DNA of 64,000 nucleotides from Candidatus Cloacimonas acidaminovorans str. Evry (GTDB lineage: Bacteria; Cloacimonadota; Cloacimonadia; Cloacimonadales; Cloacimonadaceae), in NCBI RefSeq assembly GCF_000146065.2, contig NC_020449.1:682001-746000 (forward strand). Reading direction: 5' to 3'. Below, piece after piece: positions 15,915-38,958 of this stretch. The stretch's first letter is position 1, and every line of letters begins with the position of its first letter. Under the pieces are notes generated by a model that saw nothing but the letters and a program-made list of their open reading frames with translations, was not told the DNA's origin and did no database searches. The position numbers and the translations under genes were made by a program.

Positions 15915-16760
15915 GTGAAGAAATCAGGAATTCTAACTGTAATTATTATTATTCTCTTTGCTTTATCCTGTAAGCAAACAGGAAACAATCAAAAGAAAGG
16001 CATTGTAGTTCTTTCTCCGGAAGTGGCAGAAATTATTTGCGCTCTAAATGCTGAAAAGGAAATTACAGGTATTACTGCTGAATGTAATTATCCACCTTCA
16101 CTGCAGCAGAAAAAGATAGTTGGCTCTTTCAGCAGTATTGATAAAGAAGCCATCATTGCTCTTAATCCCGAGCTAATTTTTTGCAGTTCTTTGGAGCAGG
16201 AAAACATAGCTTATGACCTGAAAAATTTGGGCTTTCAGGTGGAAGTTATTTATCCTAAAGGTATTAACGAAATGCTTTCAGACATAGAAAGAATCGGAAC
16301 TCTTATCCGAAAAAAAGAGGAAGCCGCAAAACTCGTAAACTACTTAAAAGAGGAAATAGAAAAAATTAAGGCAAATGCACAAGGCAAACTCCGTCCTAAG
16401 GTTTATCTGGAAATATACAGAAATCCCTTAATGAGCGTATCTGATTCTTCTTTTATAGGTGAACTTATTGAACTTGCCGGAGGCGATAATATTTTTTCTA
16501 CCCTGGAACGTGACTATGCCAGAATAAATCCTGAGGCAGTTATTGCTGCCAAACCGGATATTATGATTTGCTATTCACAGGAGACCCTAAAAAATATAAT
16601 TAACCGAAAGGGCTGGCAAAATATACCGGCTATTCAAAAAAGAAGAATTTACTTTGAGAAGGACATCAATCCCGATTTGCTTCAACGCGCAACTTCTCGC
16701 TGTATTGAAGGAATGAAAGAACTGGCAAAAATTTTTGCTGAATGGCGGGAAGAACAATGA
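15915..16760 (+). CDS. ABC transporter substrate-binding lipoprotein (BtuF/FecB type)
   Basis: A 281-residue periplasmic binding protein for a corrinoid or ferric siderophore. A lipoprotein signal is present, with Cys19 after the lipobox FALSC. The mature part follows the helical-backbone (class III) binding-protein pattern: VVLSPEVAEIICALNAEKEITGI, then IIALNPELIFCSS, and late AAKPDIMICYSQ. Start is GTG 15915 with AAAGGA eight bases ahead. The permease gene overlaps its end by ATGA. The leader RNA candidate and the MutL/GlmL gene 10 kb away make cobalamin the favoured ligand, but binding residues do not settle this. Confidence 0.82.
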   Translation: MKKSGILTVIIIILFALSCKQTGNNQKKGIVVLSPEVAEIICALNAEKEITGITAECNYPPSLQQKKIVGSFSSIDKEAIIALNPELIFCSSLEQENIAYDLKNLGFQVEVIYPKGINEMLSDIERIGTLIRKKEEAAKLVNYLKEEIEKIKANAQGKLRPKVYLEIYRNPLMSVSDSSFIGELIELAGGDNIFSTLERDYARINPEAVIAAKPDIMICYSQETLKNIINRKGWQNIPAIQKRRIYFEKDINPDLLQRATSRCIEGMKELAKIFAEWREEQ

Positions 16761-17680
16761 AAAAAATATTGATTCTGATTCTATGGCTCTTAATCGGTGT
16801 AGGCATTATTATTGCATATCTTACATTAGGCAAACCGGATACGAATATTATTACTCAAGTTAGAATTCCTCGTTTGCTGTTAACTCTTTTCACTGGAATG
16901 GCATTAGCCGGAATTGGTTCTATCTATCAACTTATGCTTGCCAATCCATTAGCCGAACCGTATATTTTAGGAATTTCTTCTGGTTCCGCTTTTGGCAGTA
17001 TACTTCTTGGTATATCCGGATTGATTATTTTGATGCCTGTTGGTGGTTTTATAGGTGCAGGTTTTACAATGTTGCTGGTTTGGAAACTGGCACACCAAAA
17101 AGGAAGATTTGATAAAAGCCGTTTATTGATTGCCGGTGTGATTGCCGGAATGTTTTTTTCTGCCGGTATTTCGTTGATTATGTATCTTCATCAGCAAGAT
17201 ACGGCTCTAATTTTAGGAACCCTGATGGGCAATTTGGGGCATATATTTACTAAAGGTGAATGGACAAGTTTTTTAATTCTGATGGGGTTATCTCTTATTA
17301 TCCTCATCTATCTTTTTTTCCAATCCACAGCTATTGATATTTTAAGTTGCGGAGATTTATATGCTGCCAGCTTGGGAATAAATGTTTTATCGCTAAGGCG
17401 TCAGATTTTTATCCTCACTTCCATAGTGATTGGAATTAGTGTATCTTATGCCGGAATAATTGGCTTTGTCGGATTAATTATTCCGCATATTGTGCGCTTT
17501 TTCATTCCCTCAGGACAGAAAAAAATATATCTGCTGTCATTATGGTCGGGAGGTATTTTTCTTCTTGCCTGTGATCTGCTCGCTAAACATATATTGTCTA
17601 TGGAATTACCCGTTGGAATAATTACTGCCTTTATCGGCTGTCCTTTTTTTATGTGGCTGCTTTTAAAAAAACAAGGTTGA
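16757..17680 (+). CDS. FecCD/BtuC family ABC permease
   Basis: A 307-residue inner-membrane permease of the BtuC/FecCD family, with eight or more hydrophobic segments. Family signatures include IPRLLLTLFTGMALAGIGSIYQ near the N-terminus, NPLAEPYILGISSGSAFG, and GFVGLIIPHIVRF near the C-terminus, the region that contacts the ATPase. The start at ATG 16757 overlaps the stop of the binding-protein gene (ATGA); ATG 16742 would add five residues. The usual third gene, a BtuD/FecE ATPase, does not follow: 110 bp downstream lies the left end of an IS630 element, and beyond it there is no ATPase. The ATPase must be elsewhere or has been lost. Confidence 0.9.
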   Translation: MKKILILILWLLIGVGIIIAYLTLGKPDTNIITQVRIPRLLLTLFTGMALAGIGSIYQLMLANPLAEPYILGISSGSAFGSILLGISGLIILMPVGGFIGAGFTMLLVWKLAHQKGRFDKSRLLIAGVIAGMFFSAGISLIMYLHQQDTALILGTLMGNLGHIFTKGEWTSFLILMGLSLIILIYLFFQSTAIDILSCGDLYAASLGINVLSLRRQIFILTSIVIGISVSYAGIIGFVGLIIPHIVRFFIPSGQKKIYLLSLWSGGIFLLACDLLAKHILSMELPVGIITAFIGCPFFMWLLLKKQG

Positions 17681-17860: not shown

Positions 17861-18376
17861 ATGAATCGTATCCATGTTAACGACACAATGACTGCTGATG
17901 AGTTAAAGTTAAGGATGTGCAACAGCAAAGATATTCAAGAGCACAATCGCTGGCAGGCATTATATATGGCAAAAGCGAAAGGATTATCGGCCCAGGAGAT
18001 AGCTGATATTATTGGAGTATCCAAATACACAGTCAATAAGTGGGTGTATAACTTCAATCATATTGGAGAAGAGAGTATATTTAGCCATAATAGAGGTTGT
18101 AATCGTACTTCATTTCTCAGTTGGCAAGAGGAAGAAGAGCTTCTATCCGAGATTGGTAAACAAGCTGAAAAGGGTCTGTTGGTAGTTGTCAAAACGATCA
18201 AAGCAGAAATAGAAGCCAGGATAGGGAGGACAGTCTCCAAGGATTATCCCTATGATTTGTTGCATCGTCATGGCTGGAGAAGAGTAGTTCCTCGACCTAA
18301 ACATCCCCAGCAAGATGCTGAAGCCCAGGAAGACTTTAAAAAAAACTCCCGGAATACCTGGCAGCCGCCTTGCTAA
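17861..18376 (+). CDS. IS630 transposase, upstream frame (orfA)
   Basis: This 171-residue frame encodes the N-terminal DNA-binding part of the transposase: helix-turn-helix GLSAQEIADIIGVSKYTVNKW near residues 45-65 and a second winged-helix region (TVSKDYPYDLLHRHGWRRV) before the catalytic domain. Start ATG 17861 has GGAGG seven bases upstream. Family homology stops abruptly at the A-run at 18338-18345; the last ten codons (NSRNTWQPPC) are out-of-frame sequence. It could act alone as a DNA-binding regulator of transposition, as in other two-frame elements. Confidence 0.85.
   Translation: MNRIHVNDTMTADELKLRMCNSKDIQEHNRWQALYMAKAKGLSAQEIADIIGVSKYTVNKWVYNFNHIGEESIFSHNRGCNRTSFLSWQEEEELLSEIGKQAEKGLLVVVKTIKAEIEARIGRTVSKDYPYDLLHRHGWRRVVPRPKHPQQDAEAQEDFKKNSRNTWQPPC
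18340..18346 (+). promoter_or_regulatory. A_AAA_AAC slippery heptamer for -1 frameshifting
   Basis: The upstream frame reads codons AAA-AAA-AAC here. A -1 slip on A_AAA_AAC re-pairs on AAA-AAA and continues CTC-CCG-GAA, giving KKLPEYLAAALLSFQPND, the normal sequence linking the two transposase domains. A single-base assembly error in the run of eight A residues is the alternative. Confidence 0.7.
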
Positions 18377-18918
18377 GTTTTCAACCCAACGATACAAGAC
18401 CCATTCAGGTATTTTTCCAAGACGAAGCCCGCTTCGGAAGAATCAATACTCCTGTCGCCTGTTGGGCTCCTAAAGGTCAGAGACCTACAGTTTCGAAACA
18501 GATTGTAAGACAATATTTATATGCCTACTCAGCGGTGAATCCGGTAAGTGGTGACATCTTCTCTATCCTGGCTCCCAACTGCGATACCGATATTATGTCG
18601 TTATTCATTGAGAACTTCTCTAATGAGTACCAGGATTACCGAAACATTATGATTATGGATAAAGCTGGATGGCATACCACCAGCTACCTGAAAAGCTTCG
18701 ATAATGTCCGATACATCTTCCTACCTCCATATAGTCCAGAATTGAATCCAACAGAACATCTGTGGGCAAAGATTAGAGACCTGAAGTTTAGAAACATAAC
18801 CTTCAATTCAATGAATGAAGTTATGAATGCTCTGATTGAGTGCTTTGAATACTTTGATGAAAACAAGGATATGGTCTCAAAACTAACTTATTTCAAATGG
18901 CTTAATTTGGATGTATGA
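18346..18918 (+). CDS. IS630 transposase, catalytic DDE part (orfB, by -1 frameshift)
   Basis: The frame entered after the slippery site encodes the DDE_3 catalytic domain. The three acidic residues are visible: first Asp in QVFFQDEARFGR, second Asp in IMIMDKAGWHT, and the Glu in LPPYSPELNPTEHLWAKIRD. There is no independent ribosome site at the first in-frame ATG (18370), which falls inside the domain linker, so expression as a fusion with orfA is expected. Catalytic residues and both terminal repeats are intact, so the element may be mobile. Confidence 0.87.
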   Translation, partial: LPEYLAAALLSFQPNDTRPIQVFFQDEARFGRINTPVACWAPKGQRPTVSKQIVRQYLYAYSAVNPVSGDIFSILAPNCDTDIMSLFIENFSNEYQDYRNIMIMDKAGWHTTSYLKSFDNVRYIFLPPYSPELNPTEHLWAKIRDLKFRNITFNSMNEVMNALIECFEYFDENKDMVSKLTYFKWLNLDV

Positions 18919-19058: not shown

Positions 19059-19085
19059 AAAAGCCCCGGCATAAAACCAGGGCTT
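19056..19085 (-). terminator. Intrinsic terminator of the receptor/secreted-protein operon
   Basis: On the minus strand AAGCCCTGG (19085-19077) pairs with CCGGGGCTT (19069-19061), nine pairs including one G-U, loop of seven, followed by TTTTG. It lies 30 bp after the stop codon of the last operon gene at 19115. On the plus strand the same stem has a C-A mismatch, so the minus direction is favoured. Confidence 0.75.
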
Positions 19086-19114
19086 TACTTTTTTCCATTT
19101 GAGGAAGGGTTTTC

Positions 19115-21298
19115 TTATTTCATCAACATCATTTTACGGGTTTCAACTTTGCCATCTGTGGTAAGGCGATAGAAATATAGTCCACTGGTAACTTTGTTAC
19201 CATTATTGTCTGTTCCATTCCAGACCACATTATTTCTTCCAAAATTGGCAATACCATTATGAAGTGTTTTAACCAACTGACCTTTCACATTATAAACTGA
19301 TAGATTGGCATTAGCAGTTTTGGGCATATCAAAACTGATGGTAGTTTCCGGATTGAAAGGATTGGGATAGTTTTGATTCAACATATTGGTAACAGGGCTA
19401 ACAGTAGGATCATCTGAAGCATTGCTGGGAAAGACGATTTGCAGTTCTGTAAACATTACCCGTCCACCATCATTCATAGGACCGACTCCAGGACTAATAA
19501 CAAAAGCACCCCAGGTAAAATCATCGTAGAAAAGAAGACCAAGCTTACCAACTTTCTCACCATTACTTTCACCAACATAAATAACTTTGTCGGCTGGATA
19601 TACCCACATTGGCTTAATGCCTGCAAATTCAGGGGTCTCAATATTGTTCAGTTTAATGGGTTCACTCCAATGATTGCCATTATCTCCAGAAACAGAAATC
19701 CAAATTTCTGGGGTATTTGCCCAAGCAGAATAGTCGCTATCACCATCAGCATTATACCACTTTGCCCGTGCGCTATTTTGCCAGACCATAGCTAACATTC
19801 CATGACCATTATTTTCAGTAACTTTCATATTATTGCAATGGAAAAACATAGCACTATCATGAGCATTCTGATCCCAATAGGGGAATTCCCAGCTTAAATA
19901 CATATCAACAAACCACTCATGTGTATCAGGGTCTTGAACAAAGTCCTCAACACCCCAAGGTGGTTGGCTATCCCATGGCTGATAATGTTCATCTACATCG
20001 TTAGTTGGATCCTTACGGGGCCAGATATCGTTAATTCTGAACTGAGAACCTTCTGGCTGAGAAGGATTAAAGATAATTTCTTTGGGTAATTGGAAATTAG
20101 GAAACCAATAACCATCATTGGTAACAAGTCTCCAAACAGCAGGGAAATGAATACGACCCAAATCGTCAACAGTAGCATTCAAATGACCTGAAGCTGAAGA
20201 AAATAATTCCCAGTAAATATCATTATCGCCATAAGGTAATTCGCTTTGATTTTTAAAAAAACCAGTTGTATCAGTAGGACTGGTATTAGGATTCCATGTT
20301 GGCAGGTTACCCCAACTACTGGTCCGCGACCAAGTTCCTTCTCCATAATTTCCACATTGGAAAACATCTACATCCTGCTCAACAATATTGGTTGATCCAT
20401 CTGCTTCCGTTGCAAAATGAAAACCTGCATAATAAATGTTTCCTGCATTATCCGCCGTTAAAGAATTGAAGGGTCTACGCCACTCGTCATCAACATTCCA
20501 TTCATCCATTTCCGGAATTGAGGTATATTGCCAAGTAAGAGGAACATTTTGTTCAATTTGATTAGCATCAAAATCGGCATAAGCAATTTTGGGATTTTCG
20601 GAAGGACCGTAAGTGTGAGTAATTGAGTTTCTCGCTATCACATAGATTCTTCTCTTATCGGGATAAGGAGAGGGACCAATTACAGCCGTGGGCCAAATGA
20701 ATTCATTATTGTCAGTAAAATTACCATCGGAAGTATAAACAGTTGAAGGATTATCAATAACATCTACAAGAGGGGTAAATAAGCCATAAATGCCCTCATA
20801 AAATTGGTCCACGGTAAACTGCACTTCCATTTCCGTATCCGTATCGGAATTTGCATGCCAGGCATAAAATGGCTTTCCAGAAACTGGATCAACAGCCACA
20901 GTGCCATATCCTTCATTATTTGCTTCTGTTGTAATCTCATTATTAACGATAACATCACCGTTAGCATCAAGATAAGCGTAAAATATACGACGGGTTCCCG
21001 TAGAAGTTCTACGTCCATGATAGGTTAAGAAATATCCGCCTCCTAAAATATTAGACGGAATTACACGTAAAGGCAAACCGTTATAACTTCCTATCATATA
21101 ATCATAATAAGAAGTTAAAAGAGAATGCGGAGTTTTGGTAAAAGTATATACCGGAGCTGTTCGTTCGCTCGGTATTATTTTTTTAGGGACAGGGGTTTCC
21201 ATTGCCTTCTTGTTATCGGGAGTAGGAATCATTTCCTGGGCAAAAATTATGCCCACAAGCAAAGACAATGTTAAGCTGACTAATAGGATTTTTTTCAT
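19115..21298 (-). CDS. Secreted protein with FlgD-like/type IX C-terminal sorting tail
   Basis: A 727-residue exported protein. Residues 1-20 are a signal peptide (MKKILLVSLTLSLLVGIIFA). The bulk, about 60-620, is rich in Trp, Asp and Tyr with repeated FYAYLDANGD/IYYAGFHFATEAD-type strands that resemble a sialidase-like or other beta-propeller, though I cannot assign an activity. The last 85 residues are a sorting/FlgD-Ig domain: NQNYPNPFNPETTISFDMP, then VYNVKGQLVKTL, VVWNGTDNNGNKVTSGLYFY and the basic end RKMMLMK. Such tails direct proteins through the type IX system to the cell surface. It is the last gene of the receptor operon, 29 bp after the PorV-like gene and before an intrinsic terminator. 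Confidence 0.8.
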   Translation of the reverse strand: MKKILLVSLTLSLLVGIIFAQEMIPTPDNKKAMETPVPKKIIPSERTAPVYTFTKTPHSLLTSYYDYMIGSYNGLPLRVIPSNILGGGYFLTYHGRRTSTGTRRIFYAYLDANGDVIVNNEITTEANNEGYGTVAVDPVSGKPFYAWHANSDTDTEMEVQFTVDQFYEGIYGLFTPLVDVIDNPSTVYTSDGNFTDNNEFIWPTAVIGPSPYPDKRRIYVIARNSITHTYGPSENPKIAYADFDANQIEQNVPLTWQYTSIPEMDEWNVDDEWRRPFNSLTADNAGNIYYAGFHFATEADGSTNIVEQDVDVFQCGNYGEGTWSRTSSWGNLPTWNPNTSPTDTTGFFKNQSELPYGDNDIYWELFSSASGHLNATVDDLGRIHFPAVWRLVTNDGYWFPNFQLPKEIIFNPSQPEGSQFRINDIWPRKDPTNDVDEHYQPWDSQPPWGVEDFVQDPDTHEWFVDMYLSWEFPYWDQNAHDSAMFFHCNNMKVTENNGHGMLAMVWQNSARAKWYNADGDSDYSAWANTPEIWISVSGDNGNHWSEPIKLNNIETPEFAGIKPMWVYPADKVIYVGESNGEKVGKLGLLFYDDFTWGAFVISPGVGPMNDGGRVMFTELQIVFPSNASDDPTVSPVTNMLNQNYPNPFNPETTISFDMPKTANANLSVYNVKGQLVKTLHNGIANFGRNNVVWNGTDNNGNKVTSGLYFYRLTTDGKVETRKMMLMK

Positions 21299-21327
21299 TA
21301 TTTCCTCCTGAATCTTTATTGATTCTT

Positions 21328-22359
21328 TTAATATTTAATTTTTAAAGAAACACGATGAGCACCCTTAATAAAGGACTCAGCCAAATCACCCATATCGGTA
21401 TAGGCATAGTCAATGTTAAAAATGCCAAAAGAAGTAGGAACTTGCCAGCCCACTCCTGCAGCAAAGCCATTTGTATCATAATTGAATTGATATCCGCATC
21501 GGAAAAATATGTTTCCCAGCTTATATTCAGTTCCCAAATTCCAGGTCTCTAAACGGTCTATTACATTATCCAACTGCAGAGATGCGATCCAATAGTTATT
21601 TCCTTTCCGCATCAGGTCGCCACTAACTCCTAAAGAGAAGCTGAGAGGGATTTTACTATCCAATTCAATACCATCTTCATCAACAAGACCATCTCCATCA
21701 TTATCAAACAAATCAAAAGGGTCTTCATCATCTCTGCCGTCTTCATCATCATCAACCCGAAAACGAATATCAGGACCAAAATTACGCATTGCCATCCCGA
21801 TTTTAATATTTCTCCAACCTGTGTTATACATTGAACCAACATCAACTGCATAGCTGTTTACATTAAATTCATACAGATTTTCACGGAGATATTTTATTCC
21901 CAGTCCGGCTGAGAATTTATTGGTAAATTGTTGAGCAAAAGCTGCTCCTATGGCAATGTCACTGCAAGTGAATTTTTCTCCGGTAGGTCCAAATGGCTCT
22001 TCTTCTGTTATATCCATATCATCCATATGTAATATGCTGCCATATAGTGCAATAGTAGATACCCCATTGGTATATGTGGCAGCTCCGAATTCATGCATAA
22101 TACTGGCAGGCCAATTAGTATGCGAAACAAAAACCTGATTTTCAAAGGCAGGAGCCAAACCAGCAGGATTCCAGTAAACAGAAGAAATATCATCAGTTAC
22201 GGCTGTATACGCTTCTGCCATACCTACGGCACGAGCATCCACACCAAGCTTGAGAAACTGCAAAGCTACCGTTCCCGTTTTACCAAATGGCTTGGCTGTA
22301 ATTATCAGCGGTAAACCGGCTATTGTAATAATCAGGACAAGTGTTAATACTTTCTTCAC
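21328..22359 (-). CDS. PorV/PorQ-like outer membrane beta-barrel protein
   Basis: A 343-residue outer-membrane protein with a signal peptide (cleavage near residue 22) and the family N-terminus GTVALQFLKLGVDARAVGMAEAYTAV, then ISSVYWNPAGLA, which is typical of PorV and related barrels. PorV escorts type IX cargo at the outer membrane. The barrel ends in alternating strands and VSLKIKY. An acidic insert at residues 202-230 (DDDEDGRDDEDPFD, DNDGDGLVDEDG) resembles calcium-binding thrombospondin-3-type loops and occurs in the neighbouring secreted protein as well. It lies between two secreted proteins in the same operon, which suggests it serves them. A generic fatty-acid-porin-like role is the alternative. 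Confidence 0.78.
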   Translation of the reverse strand: MKKVLTLVLIITIAGLPLIITAKPFGKTGTVALQFLKLGVDARAVGMAEAYTAVTDDISSVYWNPAGLAPAFENQVFVSHTNWPASIMHEFGAATYTNGVSTIALYGSILHMDDMDITEEEPFGPTGEKFTCSDIAIGAAFAQQFTNKFSAGLGIKYLRENLYEFNVNSYAVDVGSMYNTGWRNIKIGMAMRNFGPDIRFRVDDDEDGRDDEDPFDLFDNDGDGLVDEDGIELDSKIPLSFSLGVSGDLMRKGNNYWIASLQLDNVIDRLETWNLGTEYKLGNIFFRCGYQFNYDTNGFAAGVGWQVPTSFGIFNIDYAYTDMGDLAESFIKGAHRVSLKIKY

Positions 22360-22369
22360 AGCTCCTCCC

Positions 22370-25300
22370 TCATTTAATTATGACAAATTTGCCGACTTTG
22401 TTTTTGCCGTCGGCTTTGTTCTCTACGGAGTATAGATAAACACCAGGGGCTATTATCTGTTTGTTTTTTGAAAGTAAATCCCATGCTTCCATACCATCCG
22501 CTGCAAGACCTGTAGAACTTGCTTTAGAAATAGTGATGATATCGGTAACCGGGGCACCATCATGTTTCAAGGTCTGAACAAGATCACCTGCTAAAGTATA
22601 AATGCGGATATCACAACGTTTAGGTAGATTAATAAACCATATACGACGGCTTTTATCTCCCTTTTCATCATTTTCTCTGCGTCCGTCAAAACTGCTTCTG
22701 CCAATATAGGGATTGGGAATAACCATTATATTATCCATATTTTCCTTAGCCAAAGTACCGGGGAAAAATACTTTCATATTAGCATCAGCATCTCTTCCGC
22801 TTTCCAAATAATTCAGATCATTTGCAGGAATACCTCTATCAAAAGCGGTTAAAGCAACATAATATTCAACGCCTTTTCGGGGATACATAATATATGATTT
22901 GTAGTAGCGTCTGGCTAATCTTTCTTTCCGGAGGTTACTCAAGTCCAAAGTATCAGGGGCTTCTGCTCCTTCGCCTCCAGGAAAAGCAAATCCTTGTAAA
23001 GGAATTAGTTTAGGGTCATATAGTGCATAAAATATATGATCAGGGATGTCTTGATGTTTGAAAATGCGTGCTTGCAAAAGTTCGGTGGTTTCAAGATCGG
23101 GTCCTGTTATACTGTTAGCATAGTTTTGAAGGGATTGCCAGTCGGTTACTTCATTATATGTTGTCCCATTTATTACAATATCTGGCGTATAAATAGGCCA
23201 ACCATAAAATGTATCACCATTGGGAACAAGTTGATAATTTTCGTCAAAGTGGTAGAATTTATGATACTCACTTACATCTACATTCCATTCATTTTTATTG
23301 GGAAGACCAGTATCAATACCTAAATAACCTCCAAAATCCCTGAATAAATCAGGAAAAGCACTATTTACAGTGTAATCAGAATGATCACGAGGTGTATCAA
23401 CCTTATCCCAACGCTTAATCATTTCCCAGTCCTCCTGGCTTCCGCTTCCGCTTCTTCCCCATAAGGTGTAACCCTGAAAATCCTTGCGTAAACGTGAAGC
23501 TGTATAAGGATTAACCAGAGCATTCATATTCCAGCGTTTATCTTCCATTCCAGGCTCAGGAGGTGGTCCCGGTCTATATTCTTCAGGTATATCAACCCAG
23601 TTATTTGCAATATAAGGAGTAGGATCACTATCAAGACCTGAAATCAATAAACTACTTTCAGGATTTTGCCAGCCAATAATTGCAGTACTTACTGTTTTAA
23701 CATCATAAGAAAATTCACTGCGATTATCCCAATAAACATCTAGACGATTACCATCATCTTGTAATTGAGCATATAAATTTGGAATATCTGGCGGCTCAGG
23801 AGGTGTATAATGAGGAAATGTATCTGGTTGAGTTACCGTAATCAGGTCTTGTGCCTGGCCGTATATTTCTTTAGCCCAACCTGCTGATTTTTTCAGGTCT
23901 TCCTTATTATCTCCGGGGAAAACTGCAACTACGATTTTCATTGTCTTTTTGGGTGGTAAGTTCCACCGTTTTGCCAGATCACTATATTCTGAAGGATTTT
24001 CTGGTTGAGCTCCATAGAAAGAAAATAGAAAACGGGTATCATTTGGAGTAGGTTGTTCCCATTCAGTTAAATCTTCCTGTTCAGGACGCAGAGCAGTATA
24101 TGTAGGGGAAGATGGTTTTGGGTTGCGTCCGGTTAGTAACCAATATTTTTCATTTGAGGTCTCACCAGGTTTGGGAATTTTAAGTGGATTACCGTCATCA
24201 GGTCCATCACCAACTTTCCAATACCAGCAGTGGAACTTTAACTTTTCCGGATCAGGGGTACAAACACGAGCTCCTACCATTCCGGGAGTAATACCGTTAT
24301 CAAAGTCACCATCATAAGTATAGGCAAATTCATATCCGGTTCCCTTTACATAGCCGGATTTATCATCAGCTGCCTTTTCCACTCCCCAGGTTTGAGGACC
24401 TACATCACAATCCATATAAATTCCCATTGCACAGTCATACAAAGTATCGGCTTCATTCATATTGGTTATATCAAATTCTACATAAACCAGATTTTTAATA
24501 TATTCAAAGCTCCATTGATAACTCATCTGGCGCACTCGTATATTTAAAGGATAATGTGTGTTTGCACCACTTGATTTGCCGTAATCCCGCTCTCCTGAAG
24601 TCCCAAAAGGGCAGTAATCGTAATAAAAAGAGATAAAATCCTGTTCCGAAACGGGAGCACCATCTTCATCTATCCTGCCATCCTGATCATCGTCATAAGG
24701 AGCGGCAAAAGCATAAGTTGAATTATTATATGATAAATCCATAAAACCCAGAGGAAACCAAATTTCGGCATTTATAGGATCATCTAAAATAGTAAAATCC
24801 CTAATGGGAACCTCTGCCAGGAAATTACTCCCAAAATTCTCACTGAATTGAGTTGGTAATTCTAAACCGCTTCTGAAGGGAAAAGTAAAACCGGCGCCAT
24901 CTTCATCTATTTTCCCGTCACCATCATCATCCACACCACGCTTTTGTTTCCTTGTAGTGGCATAAATAATTCCATCAAGATTGTTATATGTAGAATAGTT
25001 CTCCGTTTGATCAGGATTATTTACCAGCAAAGGATTGTAAGCAGGTAAAAATTCATATAAATCCCAATCACCATCAAAACCCACACTTACTAAAGTATCT
25101 ATCACTGCTTGTTTAGTAGGATTCCAGCGAGGATCTGCTGCAGTAATAATAGTGTCGTTGGTTTCCGAAGGAGGATAAACTAACCAGTACAATTTTTTTC
25201 CGAAGGAATCACGGCGCTGTTTTTTGGCTCCGAACCATAAAGCTCCTTGATATAAATAATCAATTCCACTTCCTCCAGGATATTCCAAGGAAGGATATTG

Positions 25301-25492
25301 AGGAACAATATCATCTCCGGAACCGAAGAAACCATAATTACTAACTCGCAACCAGATGTTTCCTACATTATGATATTTAGTTAAATCCAGTTTTTTTGTT
25401 CCTGTAGCAGGAACTGCCGAAGCCGCATAAGCTGCACTGGCTGTAAAAAACAGCAATAGGCAAAGGCAGATTCCAATCTTATAAAACTTCAT
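22370..25492 (-). CDS. Large secreted protein with calcium-type acidic loops and C-terminal sorting-like domain
   Basis: A 1040-residue exported protein of unknown function. A signal peptide ends near residue 23 (FFTASAAYA). Two acidic loops, VDDDGDGKIDEDGA at 187-200 and YDDDQDGRIDEDGA at 266-279, have the DxDxDG spacing of calcium-binding repeats. The middle contains proline-rich turns and FN3-like strands (EPPDIPNLYAQLQDDGNRLDV). The C-terminus (NPYIGRSSFDGRR, then IRIYTLAGDLVQTLKHDG, and IAPGVYLYSVENK) is a diverged sorting/FlgD-like domain. It lies 13 bp after tonB and 10 bp before the PorV-like gene. The size, position and acidic loops suggest a calcium-stabilised surface protein. Confidence 0.75.
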   Translation of the reverse strand: MKFYKIGICLCLLLFFTASAAYAASAVPATGTKKLDLTKYHNVGNIWLRVSNYGFFGSGDDIVPQYPSLEYPGGSGIDYLYQGALWFGAKKQRRDSFGKKLYWLVYPPSETNDTIITAADPRWNPTKQAVIDTLVSVGFDGDWDLYEFLPAYNPLLVNNPDQTENYSTYNNLDGIIYATTRKQKRGVDDDGDGKIDEDGAGFTFPFRSGLELPTQFSENFGSNFLAEVPIRDFTILDDPINAEIWFPLGFMDLSYNNSTYAFAAPYDDDQDGRIDEDGAPVSEQDFISFYYDYCPFGTSGERDYGKSSGANTHYPLNIRVRQMSYQWSFEYIKNLVYVEFDITNMNEADTLYDCAMGIYMDCDVGPQTWGVEKAADDKSGYVKGTGYEFAYTYDGDFDNGITPGMVGARVCTPDPEKLKFHCWYWKVGDGPDDGNPLKIPKPGETSNEKYWLLTGRNPKPSSPTYTALRPEQEDLTEWEQPTPNDTRFLFSFYGAQPENPSEYSDLAKRWNLPPKKTMKIVVAVFPGDNKEDLKKSAGWAKEIYGQAQDLITVTQPDTFPHYTPPEPPDIPNLYAQLQDDGNRLDVYWDNRSEFSYDVKTVSTAIIGWQNPESSLLISGLDSDPTPYIANNWVDIPEEYRPGPPPEPGMEDKRWNMNALVNPYTASRLRKDFQGYTLWGRSGSGSQEDWEMIKRWDKVDTPRDHSDYTVNSAFPDLFRDFGGYLGIDTGLPNKNEWNVDVSEYHKFYHFDENYQLVPNGDTFYGWPIYTPDIVINGTTYNEVTDWQSLQNYANSITGPDLETTELLQARIFKHQDIPDHIFYALYDPKLIPLQGFAFPGGEGAEAPDTLDLSNLRKERLARRYYKSYIMYPRKGVEYYVALTAFDRGIPANDLNYLESGRDADANMKVFFPGTLAKENMDNIMVIPNPYIGRSSFDGRRENDEKGDKSRRIWFINLPKRCDIRIYTLAGDLVQTLKHDGAPVTDIITISKASSTGLAADGMEAWDLLSKNKQIIAPGVYLYSVENKADGKNKVGKFVIIK

Positions 25493-25505
25493 TAAACACT
25501 CCCAA

Positions 25506-26141
25506 TTATTGAATTTTAAATTCTACCGGAATAATTACCATACAGTCCACGGGTTGACCACTACTTTTTCCCGGTTGAAATTTTACCTTACGAACTGCTT
25601 CAATAGCTGCCTCATCCAAGCCACCACCAATTCCACGCCGAACTCTAATTTCACGAATACTGCCATCTTTTAGAACTTCCACTTCCAGAATTACGGTTCC
25701 TTGTAATTTGTTCCTTTTAGCAAATTCAGGGTAAACAGGTTCAATTTTTCCTATAACTACAGGTGCATCATCATAAGGAACAAAATTAACAGGTGTTTCA
25801 TCTTCACTTTGTTGTTGAGTCGGAGCAGTAGTACTATAAATATTGCCAATTTGGGATAACGCTTCCTGGAAAGCAGCCATATCAACTTCTTCAGTCCCTA
25901 AAACATCACTTATCTGAAAAGTGACATTAACATCAACTTCTGTTTGAGGTGCCTCAATCCGTTCCCGCTCCTCCGGTGGAATATCAACTAATTCCATTTG
26001 CTGTGATTGGAAAACCTGTTTTCTAACTTCAACTTTCGGAGTTACCATAATACCAAAGATAAGTAGTGTAAGGGATAATGCAAGCGCCTTGCTGAATTGG
26101 GCGTTAGCAATGTCTTTCCAGTCCTGATTTTTTGTCTTCAT
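25506..26141 (-). CDS. tonB: TonB family energy-transducing protein
   Basis: A 211-residue TonB. A short basic N-terminus precedes the membrane anchor (ALALSLTLLIFGIMVTP, about residues 18-34). The periplasmic linker is acidic and glutamine-rich rather than proline-rich. The C-terminal domain from about 130 has the expected pattern: IEPVYPEFAKRNKLQGTVIL, then DGSIREIRVRRGIGGGLDEAA, KVKFQPGKSSGQPVDC and the final IPVEFKIQ. It passes proton-motive energy from ExbB-ExbD to an outer-membrane receptor. GGGAG lies five bases before ATG 26141. It is placed after two ExbD genes and the ExbB gene. Confidence 0.92.
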   Translation of the reverse strand: MKTKNQDWKDIANAQFSKALALSLTLLIFGIMVTPKVEVRKQVFQSQQMELVDIPPEERERIEAPQTEVDVNVTFQISDVLGTEEVDMAAFQEALSQIGNIYSTTAPTQQQSEDETPVNFVPYDDAPVVIGKIEPVYPEFAKRNKLQGTVILEVEVLKDGSIREIRVRRGIGGGLDEAAIEAVRKVKFQPGKSSGQPVDCMVIIPVEFKIQ

Positions 26142-26152
26142 TTTTTCTCCCT

Positions 26153-26590
26153 TTATTTCTTCAGTATAGGCTGTGTCTCAAAAGCAACTACAAGAGCATT
26201 GGCATCTTGTAGTTGACGCATTACATCCGACATTACTCCATATTTTGTTTCTCTATCTGTCCGAAAACAGACAATCAATTCAGGGTCCTCCGCTTTCTTA
26301 CGGATAAGAGTTTGAGAAACGAAAACATCCTCAGAACTTTCTATGCGGGTAGGTATGTCATCCAACAGGATTGTCTCATCCCGCATTACATAAATAGTAC
26401 TTGTATGGTTACGAGGAATACGTTCAATACTTTCTGCAAAGGGCCACCGTTCTCGTTCCACCCAGAACTTTTTTTCCTGAACAAAAACGGTAGTTACCAT
26501 AAAGAACAGCAATAAGAGGAAGGCAATATCGGAAGTAGATGCCTGAGGAATGGCAACATCCCGTCTTTTTTTACTACTAAATTTAGCCAT
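26153..26590 (-). CDS. exbD: ExbD/TolR family protein, second copy
   Basis: A 145-residue ExbD-type protein. A basic N-terminus (KFSSKKRRDV) is followed by the single membrane helix with its essential acidic residue, STSDIAFLLLLFFMVTTVFV, where Asp lies in the TSDIAFLL motif. The periplasmic part ends in the conserved KYGVMSDVMRQLQDANALVV. The motif is intact, so it can take part in the proton channel. GGAG precedes ATG 26590, and the first ExbD gene ends eight bases upstream. Two ExbD forms with different periplasmic domains in tandem are common in Bacteroidota-like TonB systems and may form mixed dimers. Confidence 0.92.
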   Translation of the reverse strand: MAKFSSKKRRDVAIPQASTSDIAFLLLLFFMVTTVFVQEKKFWVERERWPFAESIERIPRNHTSTIYVMRDETILLDDIPTRIESSEDVFVSQTLIRKKAEDPELIVCFRTDRETKYGVMSDVMRQLQDANALVVAFETQPILKK

Positions 26591-26598
26591 TTTTGCTC

Positions 26599-27024
26599 CT
26601 AACTTGTAGATAAGGATATTTTTTCTATTTTAGCAGCTTTCAGGCGATCAATTACTTTAATCATATCATTGTATTTTGCCTCTCTATCCGTTATAACTTT
26701 GAAGATCATATCCGGATTTATCTGCACTTTTTGCTGAATTATTACATCCAATTCTTCGCTATCAATGTATCGGGGTGCTTCTCTATTCACTGCTATTTGT
26801 CCATCAGGAAAAATTTGAAAACGGGTCATTTCTTTCTCCGTTAAGGTAAGGGTTTTAGTTTTACCTTCTTGTGACTCTGCTGCTTGAGGCAAAACCAATT
26901 TTATACCCTCTTTCACATCAAACCTGGTTGTGGACATAAAGAAGATGATCAGGAGAAAAGCAATATCGCCAGTAGAGGCAGTTGGTATTGTTGCCCTATA
27001 TTTCCTCTTGCGAGCAATTTTCAT
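26599..27024 (-). CDS. exbD: ExbD/TolR family protein, first copy
   Basis: A 141-residue ExbD-type protein with the sequence ATIPTASTGDIAFLLIIFFM around the membrane helix, holding the proton-path Asp, and a periplasmic domain with VITDREAKYNDMIKVIDRLKAAKI near the end. It overlaps the end of exbB by four bases (ATGA), so it is coupled to exbB translation. Compared with the second copy, the periplasmic domain is different (REAPRYIDSEELDVI), so the two are not a recent duplication. Confidence 0.93.
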   Translation of the reverse strand: MKIARKRKYRATIPTASTGDIAFLLIIFFMSTTRFDVKEGIKLVLPQAAESQEGKTKTLTLTEKEMTRFQIFPDGQIAVNREAPRYIDSEELDVIIQQKVQINPDMIFKVITDREAKYNDMIKVIDRLKAAKIEKISLSTS

Positions 27025-27782
27025 CTTGTAATACCCATTTCTTCAGCCAAAGTTTCGGTGAATTTCTCGGAAGCTCTTTGCATATCTATTACAATACCAT
27101 CCACCATAGTCATAAAAACATTATTAAAGAACTGAACTGGAATTGCCACTATCAATCCGGCTTCGGTTGTAATTAAAGCAATTCGGATACCTGTTGCTAC
27201 AATTGTAGCATCCACAGCACGAGCAGCAGCAATTGATTCAAAAGCTGTAATCATTCCAGCAACAGTTCCTAAAAATCCTAACATAGGAGCAAGAGTTATG
27301 GAAGATGACAGTTCAATAAATCCCTTTTCCAGATAGCTCATTTCAATCATTGAAGCATTTTCAATTGCCTCATCTACGGCAGCCATCCCTTTATCTACTT
27401 TTTCCAATCCCGCATAAATAATAGCTGCTATAGGACCTCTCGTATTCTTGGCAATTTCTTTTGCTTCCTCAAATTTCTTCTCCTTAATTAAAGGAATGAT
27501 TTTATCAAGGAAGGTATTTAAGTTTATCTTACCGTTTAGCAAAGCAATAAACTTCCAAATAATGTAAGCTAAACCATATATTGCCAAAAAGAGAATAGGC
27601 CACATTGCCCATCCGCCATCTTTAAACCATTTTACCAGTCCGCTGCCAAATACTAGTTCTGCAAAGTTCTGTAAACCGCCACCCTCTGTCTCAGCTGCAG
27701 GTTTCTCCTGCGCGTAAGCAAAACTTGCAAAGACAAAGGTCATCATCATAATCAGCAGCATTGTTCCGATGAATTTTCTCAT
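27021..27782 (-). CDS. exbB: ExbB/MotA/TolQ proton channel protein
   Basis: A 253-residue inner-membrane channel. The first 24 residues look like a signal peptide (FVASFAYA), a feature of ExbB forms with an extra N-terminal segment in Bacteroidota-like groups. A first channel helix (WAMWPILFLAIYGLAYIIW) is followed by a cytoplasmic helical part and two later helices (LAPMLGFLGTVAGMITAFE and ALITTEAGLIVAIPVQFF). The threonine-rich motifs that line the proton path are present. It sits 26 bp after the receptor gene, before two exbD genes and tonB, giving a complete Ton motor in one operon. Confidence 0.93.
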   Translation of the reverse strand: MRKFIGTMLLIMMMTFVFASFAYAQEKPAAETEGGGLQNFAELVFGSGLVKWFKDGGWAMWPILFLAIYGLAYIIWKFIALLNGKINLNTFLDKIIPLIKEKKFEEAKEIAKNTRGPIAAIIYAGLEKVDKGMAAVDEAIENASMIEMSYLEKGFIELSSSITLAPMLGFLGTVAGMITAFESIAAARAVDATIVATGIRIALITTEAGLIVAIPVQFFNNVFMTMVDGIVIDMQRASEKFTETLAEEMGITR

Positions 27783-27808
27783 TTTTATTGATTCCTCCTT
27801 GGAATAAT

Positions 27809-30800
27809 TTAGAAGTTAAAGGAAAAGCCCAGGGTAAATCCCCGGAAGTCATTATAATTAAGCGGATTTTTACTTGCTAAAGAATTTACATAATAAACCT
27901 CAGGATAAACGAAACCGGGAATGTTGGTTTCTTCTATCTGAGCGCCATTCCAGTAATAATTCCCTGTTTTGGGATAGACACTTATAATGTTCTTGTTTTT
28001 AAATAGATTTTCCACTTCCGCAAAAACTTTAATATTGATTTTATTAGACAAGAGAAAGCCCTTGGTTATTCTTAAATTTGTTTGTTGAGTACTTGGCATT
28101 CTCTTACTATTCGTGTCAAGTTCTTGACCAGATTCGTAACTTTGTGGAGTATAAGGTGCTCCTGAAGCATAAGCCCAATTGATATTAGCGCTAAAATCGT
28201 CCAGAGGCAATATAAAGTTAGTAAAAGGTATAAAGAATTCTTCTCCTCGGGCAATGCGGAATGTGAAATTGGCACTTATATTATGGCGTATATCCCAATC
28301 CAGAGGAAACTCTCGTAAATTGGTAGTTTCATCTTGAATAACAGTATAAGAACTATTTCCTTGTGCCCAAGCTAAAGAGTAGGCAAGAGACCAGGTGTTA
28401 AAATTAGATAGCAGTTTTTCAATTTGCATATCAATTCCCCGAGCAGAACCATAATCATTGGAGTAGTATTTATACCAGTATACCGTCTGCTCTATTTCAC
28501 TACGCTCTTTCCTGGTGTTCACATAATTATATATATTTTTATAATAGGCAGTTAAATCTAAAACATAATCATCGCTAAGTTGGTGAGAAAGACCTGCTTC
28601 GTAAGTAACAGTTATTTGTGGTTCCAAACTGGGATTTCCTACCCTGATTGTTGTTTCCGAAGCATAAGCATCTTCAGGAGTTTTACTCGTAAAAATATAC
28701 TGCATTTGAGGTAATTGATTCTGATAGTTATAAGCAAAACGCAGAACATCTTTGTCTGTAATCGGATGAGAAACGCCCAACCGTGGAGAAATCATTAACT
28801 GCATCAGATCACTTTTATCAAATTCGCGTAAATCAAAACTACCATCATCCTGTGCCACATAATATTTTTTACCCAAATACCACAAATCAAATCGTAATCC
28901 GGCATTAACAATCATTCCTTCCCATTCCATTTTATCCTGCAAGTAATATGCCATTTGCCAGGGCTCTGCTTTATAACCATCACGCTTTCCGGATGCCGCT
29001 TTAGCTGCAGCAAAGTAATCCTCCGGCTTATAAATAGGAACCAAATCAGCAATAGATGTTGGATTTTCTTTAGTTGCAACAATCGCATAAATGCCCTCGG
29101 GGAGATATTCATCATCTAACAACATATTGCCATCGGCATCAACAAAATTGTCAATATTATAGTTTCTAATATCAAATATGCTGTTTAAATAGGCAACGCG
29201 TCGTTTTTCATCAATATTTAGATAATCCTCTAATTGATTTTTTTTGATGTTATGCTTTATAACTTCTAAACCGGTCTTTGCCATATGGGTTTCATTTATT
29301 TGCCATTCAAAATCTGCTCGTCCACTTAGTATTTTAGTGGTATCATCTATGAAGGCATTATAAATATAACCGGGAGGAAGATAGCCAGGAATTGATCTTG
29401 GCTCTTCCACGCTTTCCAGACGAAATTTCCAATAATCATAAGGTAAAAACCCATAATCATAAATACCATCATTATCCGCATCAATTGTGGAATATCCATA
29501 GTCCCCTAAAGCTACCCTTTGGATATAATCACTGGGAATATTATTAGGGTCTACAGTCATAAATATATACGAATCCCGATCTATGCCTTTGGGACCCTCA
29601 TAACTATCTTTCTGATAATAACTGGCTTTCACTTTAATATTCATTTTATCATTAATTACATAATCGTAAGTGCCAATATATTGTCGCTGAATTATTTCAT
29701 CTTCTGCATAGTGCTGAAGTGCATAGCGCCAGTAATTACTATATGGATAGTTTAAACTTCTATCGCCCCGAACGGCAAATGTAGCTACCTGACCGGGCTT
29801 AAAAGCATACTTGGTTTTTAAATTTATATTATAGGCATTGTAATTACGATTGCCAATATCAATGCCGAGAATTTTATCCCTACCTGTATAAGGATTATAG
29901 ATAGGATAATCGGCATCAATTAGTGTTCTTCCATTTAAAGTATAATCACCATTGGGATCACTTATATAATAATCTTTCAAACGACCATCCAACCATTCAC
30001 CGGCACCATTGAGATAAAATGTGAATTTTTCCTTCATTTCCTGAGAAGCAAAAGGTAATACAGGACCCCCAATAGCCAATTTCACAACATCAGTATTGCG
30101 TCCCTCGCCAATAAGATGATCGGTATTATATTCAACCTTGCCGGAGAAAAAAGGATCTCCATCTTTAGTAACAATATTGATCACACCCGATTGAGCATTG
30201 CCATATTCTGCTGGAAAACCTCCTGTCATCACTTTCATATCTTTAATAGCATCGGTATCAACTTGTAAAGTCGCTCCTCCGTCAACAGGATCGGTAACAC
30301 TCATACCATCTATAGTATAATTAATTTCATTTGAACGGCCACCACGAATATGTAATTCGCCTCCAACATTAGTTACTCCTGCTTGCAAAGCAACAATATC
30401 AGCAACATCTGAAACGGCAGCATCTGTCACAATACTCATTTCTATATTTCTGGCACTTCCTACACGGTTTTTATCTACCTTATCTTCAGTAGCTGTAACG
30501 GTTACTGCCTTCATTTCAAAACCGCTTTTATTCATAGTAGGAGCAAGATTTGTAGTTTGATCTACAATTATACGCACATCATTATACACCACAGTATCAT
30601 AACCGATAAGGGAAAACTTAACTGTATAAAGACCTGGGGGAATATTTATGATAATTGCTGTTCCTTTAGCATTCGTTTGACCACCGGTTACTCGTTGATT
30701 TCCTTGCATAACAACAATATTAACAAATTCCAAGGGGCGACCGGCATTATCGCGCACTCTAACTGCAAGTTTTCCAGTAGTAGCAGCTTCTAAAAATACT

Positions 30801-30847
30801 GTTCCTGCAAGCATAATTATTAGTAGGATCAATGCATATTTACGCAT
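27809..30847 (-). CDS. TonB-dependent outer membrane receptor with CarboxypepD-like N-terminal domain
   Basis: A 1012-residue outer-membrane receptor. A signal peptide (LIIMLAGTVFLEA, about 1-21) is followed by a carboxypeptidase-regulatory-like domain (residues about 24-110, GKLAVRVRDNAGRPLEFVNIVV), then a plug domain (IVALQAGVTNVGGELHIRGGRSNEI, YTIDGMSVTDPVDGG, GGFPAEYGNAQSGVINIVTK), and a 22-strand-type barrel ending in TLGFSFNF. ATG 30847 has GGGAGG upstream. It opens an eight-gene operon running to 19115. No SusD-type lipoprotein accompanies it, so it is not a classical Sus glycan system. The substrate is unknown; it could import, or help assemble or export, the proteins encoded downstream. 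Confidence 0.92.
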   Translation of the reverse strand: MRKYALILLIIMLAGTVFLEAATTGKLAVRVRDNAGRPLEFVNIVVMQGNQRVTGGQTNAKGTAIIINIPPGLYTVKFSLIGYDTVVYNDVRIIVDQTTNLAPTMNKSGFEMKAVTVTATEDKVDKNRVGSARNIEMSIVTDAAVSDVADIVALQAGVTNVGGELHIRGGRSNEINYTIDGMSVTDPVDGGATLQVDTDAIKDMKVMTGGFPAEYGNAQSGVINIVTKDGDPFFSGKVEYNTDHLIGEGRNTDVVKLAIGGPVLPFASQEMKEKFTFYLNGAGEWLDGRLKDYYISDPNGDYTLNGRTLIDADYPIYNPYTGRDKILGIDIGNRNYNAYNINLKTKYAFKPGQVATFAVRGDRSLNYPYSNYWRYALQHYAEDEIIQRQYIGTYDYVINDKMNIKVKASYYQKDSYEGPKGIDRDSYIFMTVDPNNIPSDYIQRVALGDYGYSTIDADNDGIYDYGFLPYDYWKFRLESVEEPRSIPGYLPPGYIYNAFIDDTTKILSGRADFEWQINETHMAKTGLEVIKHNIKKNQLEDYLNIDEKRRVAYLNSIFDIRNYNIDNFVDADGNMLLDDEYLPEGIYAIVATKENPTSIADLVPIYKPEDYFAAAKAASGKRDGYKAEPWQMAYYLQDKMEWEGMIVNAGLRFDLWYLGKKYYVAQDDGSFDLREFDKSDLMQLMISPRLGVSHPITDKDVLRFAYNYQNQLPQMQYIFTSKTPEDAYASETTIRVGNPSLEPQITVTYEAGLSHQLSDDYVLDLTAYYKNIYNYVNTRKERSEIEQTVYWYKYYSNDYGSARGIDMQIEKLLSNFNTWSLAYSLAWAQGNSSYTVIQDETTNLREFPLDWDIRHNISANFTFRIARGEEFFIPFTNFILPLDDFSANINWAYASGAPYTPQSYESGQELDTNSKRMPSTQQTNLRITKGFLLSNKINIKVFAEVENLFKNKNIISVYPKTGNYYWNGAQIEETNIPGFVYPEVYYVNSLASKNPLNYNDFRGFTLGFSFNF

Positions 30848-31044
30848 CGAAAACCTCCCTCTCTTCAGGGTTTTATACCTTTATTTTATTTATAGTTCCA
30901 AGCTCAAATAAGCTTTTTCATATATCTTAACTTCTTACTCAAAAACTCTTCTTTGTAATCTTAAGAAAAAAGTCAAGAGGTTTTTTTATAATATAATCTA
31001 AATTCCTCTTCTAACAAGGTGAAAACTATCTAAATTTCTTAACT

Positions 31045-37565: not shown

Positions 37566-38537
37566 TTATTCAATATTATATCTTATACTTACCTGATTGG
37601 TTAATCCTAAGTCCCCGTAAGAAGCAACAGCATAGTCCAGGGCAATTTTTTTCCAAATCCAGCCCACTCCTAAACTTATTCCGGAAGTCCATTCCATATT
37701 TCCTCCCAGATAATAGTCCCCGGCATTAGTTTTAAATCCGCCTCTTAGAACTAAGGAAGGATGAATTTGTTGTTCAACTCCAAATTTACCGATAAAGTTT
37801 TCTCCGTTGGCTTTAGTAATATCTATATTCAGCAGAGTATTTTTCCCCACATCTATTCCAAAACCTGCACCATAAGTAAATGGTATTCCTTCATCGTATT
37901 TTTTATCGCTGTAGTGGCTAATTTGGAAACCCAAATTTTTCGCCGATAGACCTACTTTTATTCTTTCGTTAGCAGTATGATGTAAAATACCGATATCAAT
38001 TAAGACAGCAGAAGCTGATTTATCATCTATTTGGTCTAAAACAAATTTTATACTACCTCCCGCATCCAAAGCAGGGCTTACGAATTTTGCCAAAGTAAAG
38101 CCGGCTAATATATCTTGGGCATTAAAGGTATCATTCAGTTCAATAAATTCGCCATTTGTCCCTACATCCGTCCTGTCTATAGAACCCGAATTCCAATAGT
38201 TTAAATAAAATCCATAAGAAGTGTATATATTTTTTGGAACTACATAACTTACCGAACCACCTCCGGAACCAACAAAATGGTCTGCAAAGGTAGTAAAAAC
38301 ACCCTGATTGGGAACTCTGATTATGGATGCAGGATTAAACTGCATACCATCAAAATTTTTTGCTCTTCCCAGCATTGCTTGTCCCATTCCGTTTGCTCTG
38401 GCAGAATAAATTATCTTTAATGTAGAAAAACCGGTAGTTCCGGCATCTTGATGCTGTGCCAGCAATGGCATTAGAAAAAGAATACTAAACGCCAAGCTGA
38501 GGAAGTAGTTCTTCTTCCAAAAATTGAACTTTTTCAT
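37566..38537 (-). CDS. PorV/PorQ-like outer membrane protein
   Basis: A 323-residue beta-barrel protein of the PorV/PorQ (UPF0164) type. The signal peptide (FLSLAFSILFLMPLLAQ) is followed by GTTGFSTLKIIYSARANGMGQA and FDGMQFNPASI, the family N-terminal pattern, and ends YNIE after alternating strands. PorQ-like proteins help sort type IX cargo or attach it to the cell surface. I start it at ATG 38537, preceded by AAAGG; this lies 53 bp inside the EIIA gene upstream. The position between EIIA and glyS has no obvious functional logic. Confidence 0.78.
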   Translation of the reverse strand: MKKFNFWKKNYFLSLAFSILFLMPLLAQHQDAGTTGFSTLKIIYSARANGMGQAMLGRAKNFDGMQFNPASIIRVPNQGVFTTFADHFVGSGGGSVSYVVPKNIYTSYGFYLNYWNSGSIDRTDVGTNGEFIELNDTFNAQDILAGFTLAKFVSPALDAGGSIKFVLDQIDDKSASAVLIDIGILHHTANERIKVGLSAKNLGFQISHYSDKKYDEGIPFTYGAGFGIDVGKNTLLNIDITKANGENFIGKFGVEQQIHPSLVLRGGFKTNAGDYYLGGNMEWTSGISLGVGWIWKKIALDYAVASYGDLGLTNQVSIRYNIE

Positions 38538-38958
38538 ACAAATACCTTTCATCTTTGGCTTGTAACAATGTTTCCCTGTTTTCTTCCCGCCTCAAAAATT
38601 CCGATAATGACCGTAAAATCTTCATATAATCCTGATTGGAACTTTGGGGAACGGCTATCATAAAAACCAAATGCACAGGTAAATTATCCACACTGGAGAA
38701 ATCCAAATCCTGTTTCACTAAACAGACAGCTATCCTTAAACAGCTAACTGTTAAGTCCCTGGCATGGGGAATAGCAATCCCTTTCCCTATACCCGTGCTC
38801 ATTATTTCTTCTCTTCCTTTAACTGCTGCCAGAAAACGGTCTGGAAAACTTAAACAGCCGCTTTCCGATAGCAAATTTGCCATATATTGCAGGCAGGCAT
38901 TTTTGTTCTCGAACTTCTCTACAATCTTTACCAGTTCGGGCATAAAAAGCTTGTTCAT
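38485..38958 (-). CDS. PTS EIIA-type protein (PtsN/fructose family)
   Basis: A 157-residue EIIA domain protein. The phosphorylated histidine is His65 in STGIGKGIAIPHARD, and the remainder (VHLVFMIAVPQSSNQDYMKIL) fits the PTS_EIIA_2 fold. No EIIB, EIIC, HPr or EI gene is nearby, so it is more likely a regulator in the manner of PtsN than part of a sugar permease. The start ATG 38958 has GGTGGGA upstream. Its last 53 bp overlap the start of the PorQ-like gene. It is the first gene of the eight-gene operon and faces away from the HlyD gene. Confidence 0.87.
   Translation of the reverse strand: MNKLFMPELVKIVEKFENKNACLQYMANLLSESGCLSFPDRFLAAVKGREEIMSTGIGKGIAIPHARDLTVSCLRIAVCLVKQDLDFSSVDNLPVHLVFMIAVPQSSNQDYMKILRSLSEFLRREENRETLLQAKDERYLYEKVQFLEEELLPQLGV

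Follow-up and report, generated by a model that had tools for sequence, protein, structure and literature searches.

In Bacteroidota, outer-membrane receptors are paired with lipid-anchored SusD lids. The operon described here resembles these SusC-SusD (RagA-RagB) pairs in that a receptor with an N-terminal carboxypeptidase-regulatory-like domain is encoded together with a large putative surface partner, and in that a variable binder is encoded downstream. Significant differences separate the two systems. The large partner of the present operon, a 1040-residue protein termed S1040, has neither a SusD family match nor a lipobox, is modelled with a beta-sandwich, and is probably delivered by type IX secretion. 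In addition, no SusC family assignment was obtained for the receptor, and a gene of the PorV family and an ExbB-ExbD-ExbD-TonB motor are encoded alongside it.

Two type IX arrangements offer further comparisons. As in the PorV/PorU and PorQ/PorZ pairs, a PorV-family barrel is encoded next to a protein whose C-terminal domain (CTD) is modelled as PorZ-like. Unlike those pairs, the body of S1040 is modelled as a supersandwich rather than as propellers or a C25 protease, and the barrel carries a calcium-loop-like insertion and has a TonB receptor and its motor encoded with it. Experiments in Flavobacterium johnsoniae have demonstrated that a type B cargo has a cognate PorP-SprF-like shuttle encoded beside it, which fixes its destination (PMC12618676). 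Common to such pairs and the present operon is a cargo gene with a private carrier as its neighbour; the operon differs in its PorV-family barrel, its type A-like tails and its TonB setting. A literature search, with most subscription journals outside its reach, returned no description of this gene row or of a receptor-S-PorV module.

An eight-gene row with a receptor, a Ton motor and two secreted proteins

The window, meaning the whole stretch of DNA that was analysed, comprises 64,000 nucleotides of the Candidatus Cloacimonas acidaminovorans str. Evry genome, which is a single contig of 2,246,820 bases. The open reading frame listing places eight genes in a row on the minus strand, from 30847 down to 19115, with intergenic gaps in transcription order of 26, -4, 8, 11, 13, 10 and 29 bp. 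Their features are as follows.

30848..31044, no strand assigned: presumed promoter region, A+T-rich, 197 bp (sequence only)
27809..30847, minus: TonB-dependent receptor, 1012 residues, with signal peptide (Pfam)
about 30533-30769, minus: CarboxypepD_reg domain of the receptor (PF13620)
about 30185-30445, minus: Plug domain of the receptor (PF07715, 34.3 bits, over cut-off)
27021..27782, minus: ExbB-type proton channel, 253 residues, N-terminal signal-like segment (PF01618, MotA_ExbB, 90.5 bits)
26599..27024, minus: ExbD-type axle protein 1, 141 residues (PF02472, 75.9 bits)
26153..26590, minus: ExbD-type axle protein 2, 145 residues (PF02472, 55.5 bits)
25506..26141, minus: TonB protein, 211 residues (PF03544, 78.2 bits)
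22370..25492, minus: S1040, putative surface protein, 1040 residues, Sec-type signal (AlphaFold model, family conservation)
24899..24931, minus: S1040 calcium-loop-like motif 1, DDDGDGKIDED, residues 188-198 (motif pattern)
24662..24694, minus: S1040 calcium-loop-like motif 2, DDDQDGRIDED, residues 267-277 (motif pattern)
22373..22750, minus: S1040 C-terminal type IX-like domain, residues 915-1040 (fold match and weak NCBIfam match)
21328..22359, minus: PorV/PorQ-family outer-membrane carrier, 343 residues, GTG start (NF033709)
21673..21753, minus: inserted acidic loop of the carrier with two calcium-loop-like motifs, residues 203-229 (motif pattern)
19115..21298, minus: secreted protein of 727 residues, a beta-propeller followed by a type A type IX tail (Por_Secre_tail and model)
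19060-19086, minus: intrinsic terminator hairpin closing the operon (11-bp stem, -18.4 kcal/mol, then T-rich sequence)

These results agree with the initial annotation, which had reported eight same-strand genes with gaps of 29 bp or less, a single 4-bp overlap and a shared terminator. All of the reading frames are at the places it gave, and the terminator is real, with the hairpin absent from the output of a generic scan of the window. The gene identities it had proposed also agree with the Pfam and NCBIfam matches, the 1040-residue protein having no Pfam family. A purine-rich stretch precedes most of the start codons. Promoter-like sites in the region occur at chance frequency (56 found against 51.9 expected), and the eight genes probably form one transcript.

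Genes lying before the receptor in other loci were considered as further operon members and rejected. The candidate in distant relatives (about 273 residues) appears by eye to be lipoate-protein ligase-like and that in other phyla (about 266 residues) a YmdB-like phosphoesterase; gaps of 36-559 bp separate them from the receptor. Convergent to the operon are genes for an IsdE/BtuF-like substrate-binding protein and a FecCD permease (15915-17680, plus strand), which also adjoin it in the close relatives L046 and L053. A substrate guess drawn from these neighbours was dropped, since they lie beside the operon in some close relatives only. Two overlapping transposase-like frames occupy 17861-18918 (plus strand), and a near-identical pair was found beside another TonB-dependent receptor (L114, 10663-11720).

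In addition to its plug, the receptor has an outer-membrane barrel (PF14905, 36.2 bits, over cut-off), and no SusC/RagA model was found among its NCBIfam matches. The plug segment is highly conserved in relatives, and a TonB-box-like segment ahead of it (VTVTA) is variable. The membrane aspartates of the first (GDIAFLL) and second (SDIAFLL) ExbD proteins are kept in the relatives shown. As in the Ton system (ExbB-ExbD-TonB), all three families are encoded together and score above their curated Pfam thresholds. The operon departs from that system in its two ExbD paralogues and in its further genes, which encode a receptor, a barrel of the PorV family and proteins of the type IX kind.

The initial annotation had proposed a dedicated Ton motor, possibly for surface assembly, and the dedicated motor is partly supported. 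The operon TonB is the one TonB_C protein of the genome to score above threshold, while two of the three plug-type receptors in the genome lack an adjacent motor, so the operon motor may serve those receptors too. Two ExbB/ExbD-type sets are present outside the operon. The set near 1.158 Mb is accompanied by a weak second TonB/TolA-like protein (13.6 bits), and the set near 2.042 Mb, with two ExbD-like proteins, is one that we take to resemble Agl-type motors. A third motor is seen in the stretch L105 (6586-10178) as a row of ExbB, two ExbD-like proteins and a 475-residue protein, with a giant TPR-like protein encoded upstream.

S1040 and its PorV-family neighbour

S1040 matched no Pfam family and no SusD model in NCBIfam, and its AlphaFold model is largely beta. 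The model is moderately confident (mean pLDDT 67.6), with low confidence in the calcium-loop regions, and divides into a beta-supersandwich (about residues 44-565), an FN3-like region (565-910) with FN3-like structural matches, and a type IX-like CTD (915-1040). Comparison with the PDB returned domain-level matches only and no full-length relative, and SusD is not among the matches listed. The supersandwich resembles the N-domains of GH94/GH116/GH15-type enzymes (best Z 12.6 over 240 residues, rmsd 4.1), while the modelled CTD resembles that of PorZ (Z 11.1, rmsd 2.5, 87 residues, 22% identity). By sequence, the CTD gives a weak NCBIfam T9SS_PorZ match below curated thresholds. The modelled fold suggests that the tail is of the type IX kind, and both secreted proteins of the operon therefore look like cargo.

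For the 727-residue protein, cargo of type A is indicated by sequence (Por_Secre_tail 35.4 bits, cut-off 27; TIGR04183 42.2, cut-off 23). Its model (pLDDT 83.1) has a beta-propeller fold, with structural matches to CylK (Z about 22), glycoside hydrolases (21) and lectins (20). Since the folds of both surface proteins occur in carbohydrate-active proteins, the models suggest a glycan or glycoconjugate ligand as a first guess.

The export route exists in this genome, given that the SprA translocon (TIGR04189, 480.5 bits, cut-off 200), the PorU sortase (NF033707, 575.2 bits, cut-off 420) and 65 Por_Secre_tail matches over cut-off were all found; SprA and PorU together indicate a type IX system. 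PorU was matched in 122 of 123 phylum genomes.

The barrel encoded between the two secreted proteins belongs to the PorV/PorQ family (NF033709 PorV_fam, 202.7 bits, cut-off 90) and falls short of the PorV equivalog (NF033710 T9SS_OM_PorV, 69.7 bits, cut-off 250). Its solved relative is PorV (6h3i_F, E 2e-10). The inserted acidic loop holds two copies of the pattern D[DN]DxDGxxDED. The alternation of long loops and short turns in the PorV sequence indicates that this insertion probably faces the outside of the cell. The motif is missing from the genome's five further PorV paralogues, and the PorVs of other phyla do not have the insertion, which makes it lineage-specific.

The paired form of the motif in S1040 and the barrel is DxDxDGxxDED. 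Across the S1040 family, motif 1 is present in 41 of 41 members and motif 2, detected with the same pattern, in 36 of 41; at least one calcium-loop-like motif is present in 39 of 40 operon PorVs. Among 168 open reading frames, from the window plus ten further stretches of the genome, only S1040 and the operon PorV carry the motif, each as a pair. The presence of calcium-type loops in two operon neighbours and in no paralogue argues for direct contact between S1040 and the barrel. Co-loss of the motifs is not claimed. At one locus (L080) the PorV lacks them and S1040 retains one, while four other one-motif S1040 members have a PorV with motifs.

Gene order within and beyond the phylum

S1040 family members were found in 114 of 125 phylum genomes, with most full-length relatives at 50-76% identity. 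Forty loci around S1040 matches were fetched from 13 families of the phylum. Thirty-four of these span receptor to PorV, and 33 have the order receptor-ExbB-ExbD-ExbD-TonB-S1040-PorV (including L062, in which a contig end cuts the receptor); the remaining one, L080, has the same gene set plus a second TonB-like frame. Of the other six loci, four are truncated by a contig end (L057, L065, L074, L085), and two hold S1040 copies with no motor (L055, L076). Conservation of gene order in other Cloacimonadota had been set beforehand as a check on the initial annotation, and the seven genes are indeed in order in all 12 assessable families. The thirteenth family (f8) is represented by the single cut locus L065, in which S1040, PorV and the propeller protein are visible. 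Median gaps across the phylum loci are 7-33 bp, and the flanking genes vary between loci both upstream and downstream.

Outside the family of this genome, the operon proteins have median identities of 33-55% to the window proteins, and the persistence of the order in 33 loci at such divergence places it beyond chance. By median identity PorV (55%) comes first, followed by ExbB (53%), S1040 (52%), the receptor (46%), TonB (37%) and the propeller protein (33%). Upstream genes, named by eye, served for comparison (aminotransferase 57%, PurM-like 52%, PfkB-like 46%), and S1040 is therefore about as constrained as metabolic enzymes. The last gene of the operon is the variable part. The propeller protein directly follows PorV in 29 of the 33 ordered loci, and the gene can also be present in tandem copies or missing. 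Together with the median identities of S1040 (52%) and the propeller protein (33%), this is a pattern like that of a fixed core with changeable binders. Tandem propeller-type copies, after PorV or around S1040, were observed in L054, L056, L064, L076 and L082.

Relatives outside the phylum were found through a DNA pattern for a motif near the S1040 N-terminus, which matched records from Zixibacteria, LCP-89, WOR-3, Calditrichota and further bacteria. A profile search of eight other-phylum genomes returned 3-14 S-family matches per genome. Receptor, S and PorV genes are directly adjacent in 8 of 20 fetched neighbourhoods (L148, L154, L156, L157, L159, L161, L162 and L163); in several further loci they lie within a few genes of each other with others interposed, and some S genes stand alone. 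The adjacent arrangement is represented in WOR-3, LCP-89, Calditrichota and Zixibacteria. These receptor-S-PorV modules are multi-copy and mostly motor-free. At the WOR-3 locus L163 the motor is directly upstream, in the order ExbB-ExbD-ExbD-TonB-receptor-S-PorV. By gene order, then, the receptor-S-PorV module extends beyond the phylum, and two or more phyla have the motor linked to it.

These comparisons divide the initial statement that type IX sorting and TonB uptake are normally encoded apart: it holds for the motor and fails for the receptor, since receptor-S-PorV clusters occur in several FCB-group phyla. The suggestion that the surface components are sorted by their own PorV gains support from the S-PorV adjacency in other phyla and from the shared calcium-loop-like motifs.

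Capture and import compared with other functions

On balance, the operon probably encodes one energised machine that captures and imports a ligand, with a surface partner that leaves the cell by type IX secretion and is retained by a PorV of its own. Sec would take S1040 and the propeller protein across the inner membrane, and the type IX translocon (SprA) would then carry them through the outer membrane. The tail of S1040 and the acidic calcium-loop-like motifs would keep it on the neighbouring PorV-family barrel, its private carrier and anchor. Positioned over or beside the receptor, S1040 would capture ligand, and ExbB, the two ExbDs and TonB would convert the proton gradient into a pull on the receptor plug through which the ligand enters. 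The role proposed for S1040 would resemble that of SusD for SusC, with a different fold and delivery route. We infer the physical receptor-S1040-PorV complex, calcium binding, the surface location of S1040 and the direction of transport.

Capture and import is favoured because the seven-gene order is intact in 33 of 34 loci, because receptor-S-PorV modules are multi-copy as expected of uptake modules, because the paired motifs are common to S1040 and PorV alone, because an export route exists, and because a fixed S1040 core is combined with a variable last gene. Several points stand against it. Conservation of S1040 almost at the level of housekeeping enzymes is unusual for a nutrient binder, its model is of moderate confidence with a CTD below curated sequence thresholds, several other-phylum loci have further genes between receptor, S and PorV, and some S genes stand alone. 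Should capture and import be correct, an FCB-group phylum other than Bacteroidota seems to replace the SusD lid by a partner that is exported through type IX secretion and held by PorV. With the motor in the same gene row, an arrangement kept across the phylum, energised uptake looks physically linked to type IX export, and the operon offers a concrete candidate for the feeding mechanism of these largely uncultured bacteria.

An unlikely alternative is that the motor is the general Ton system of the genome, located beside its most important receptor, with S1040, PorV and the propeller protein being ordinary type IX surface proteins that share the transcript. The single TonB_C protein above threshold, the two motorless receptors and the PorV paralogues beside large tailed proteins elsewhere in the genome would fit such an arrangement; it leaves unexplained why the order is kept across 12 families despite changing flanks, why receptor, S and PorV are linked in other phyla without a motor, and why S1040 and PorV have a motif in common.

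Lower in probability is a role of the operon motor, sole or additional, in powering type IX secretion. It would replace GldL/GldM and pass force to SprA or PorV, the receptor and S1040 being part of the output machinery from which PorV-bound cargo is released. In Flavobacterium, release of cargo from the translocon needs the energy of a proton-motive-force motor (PMC10994853). SprA and PorU are present here, the operon combines a motor, a PorV and type IX cargo, and S1040 is nearly universal in the phylum. GldL and GldM models gave no match above cut-off in this genome or in 123 phylum genomes, and GldM gave none in the eight other-phylum genomes, both being searches without a positive control. 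Two other ExbB/ExbD motors in the genome could do the job, however, TonB_C and an adjacent plug-type receptor are a classical partner pair, and the motor is mostly missing from the multi-copy modules of other phyla. The operon offers a way to test what energises type IX secretion in genomes where searches for GldL/GldM find nothing. That one ExbB-ExbD-TonB machine drives both receptor import and the export or release of PorV-bound cargo is less credible again.

Least probable is an envelope-building machine, with S1040, PorV and the receptor forming a complex that would assemble or anchor proteins of the surface layer or the outer membrane, a role comparable to that of the extracellular BAM canopy in Bacteroidota: S1040 is near-universal and conserved as housekeeping proteins are, and large extracellular assemblies around an outer-membrane machine are known in the FCB group (PMC12611786), but the operon has no BamA, BamD or lipoprotein genes and its receptor, with a plug and a motor, is equipped as an importer.

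Six PorV-family genes, including that of the operon, are present in the genome. The second in the window is PorQ-like (37566-38552, minus strand, 114 bits), and the window also encodes a secreted protein of 1817 residues that has a type IX tail and, by eye, a C25-protease-like stretch (51183-56636, plus strand). Other PorV paralogues, in L109, L110 and L111, adjoin large proteins with type IX-like tails, and carrier-cargo pairing may consequently be general in this genome. In L110 (1663-7813), a PorU2-like protein of 1709 residues is followed directly by a PorV2-like gene.
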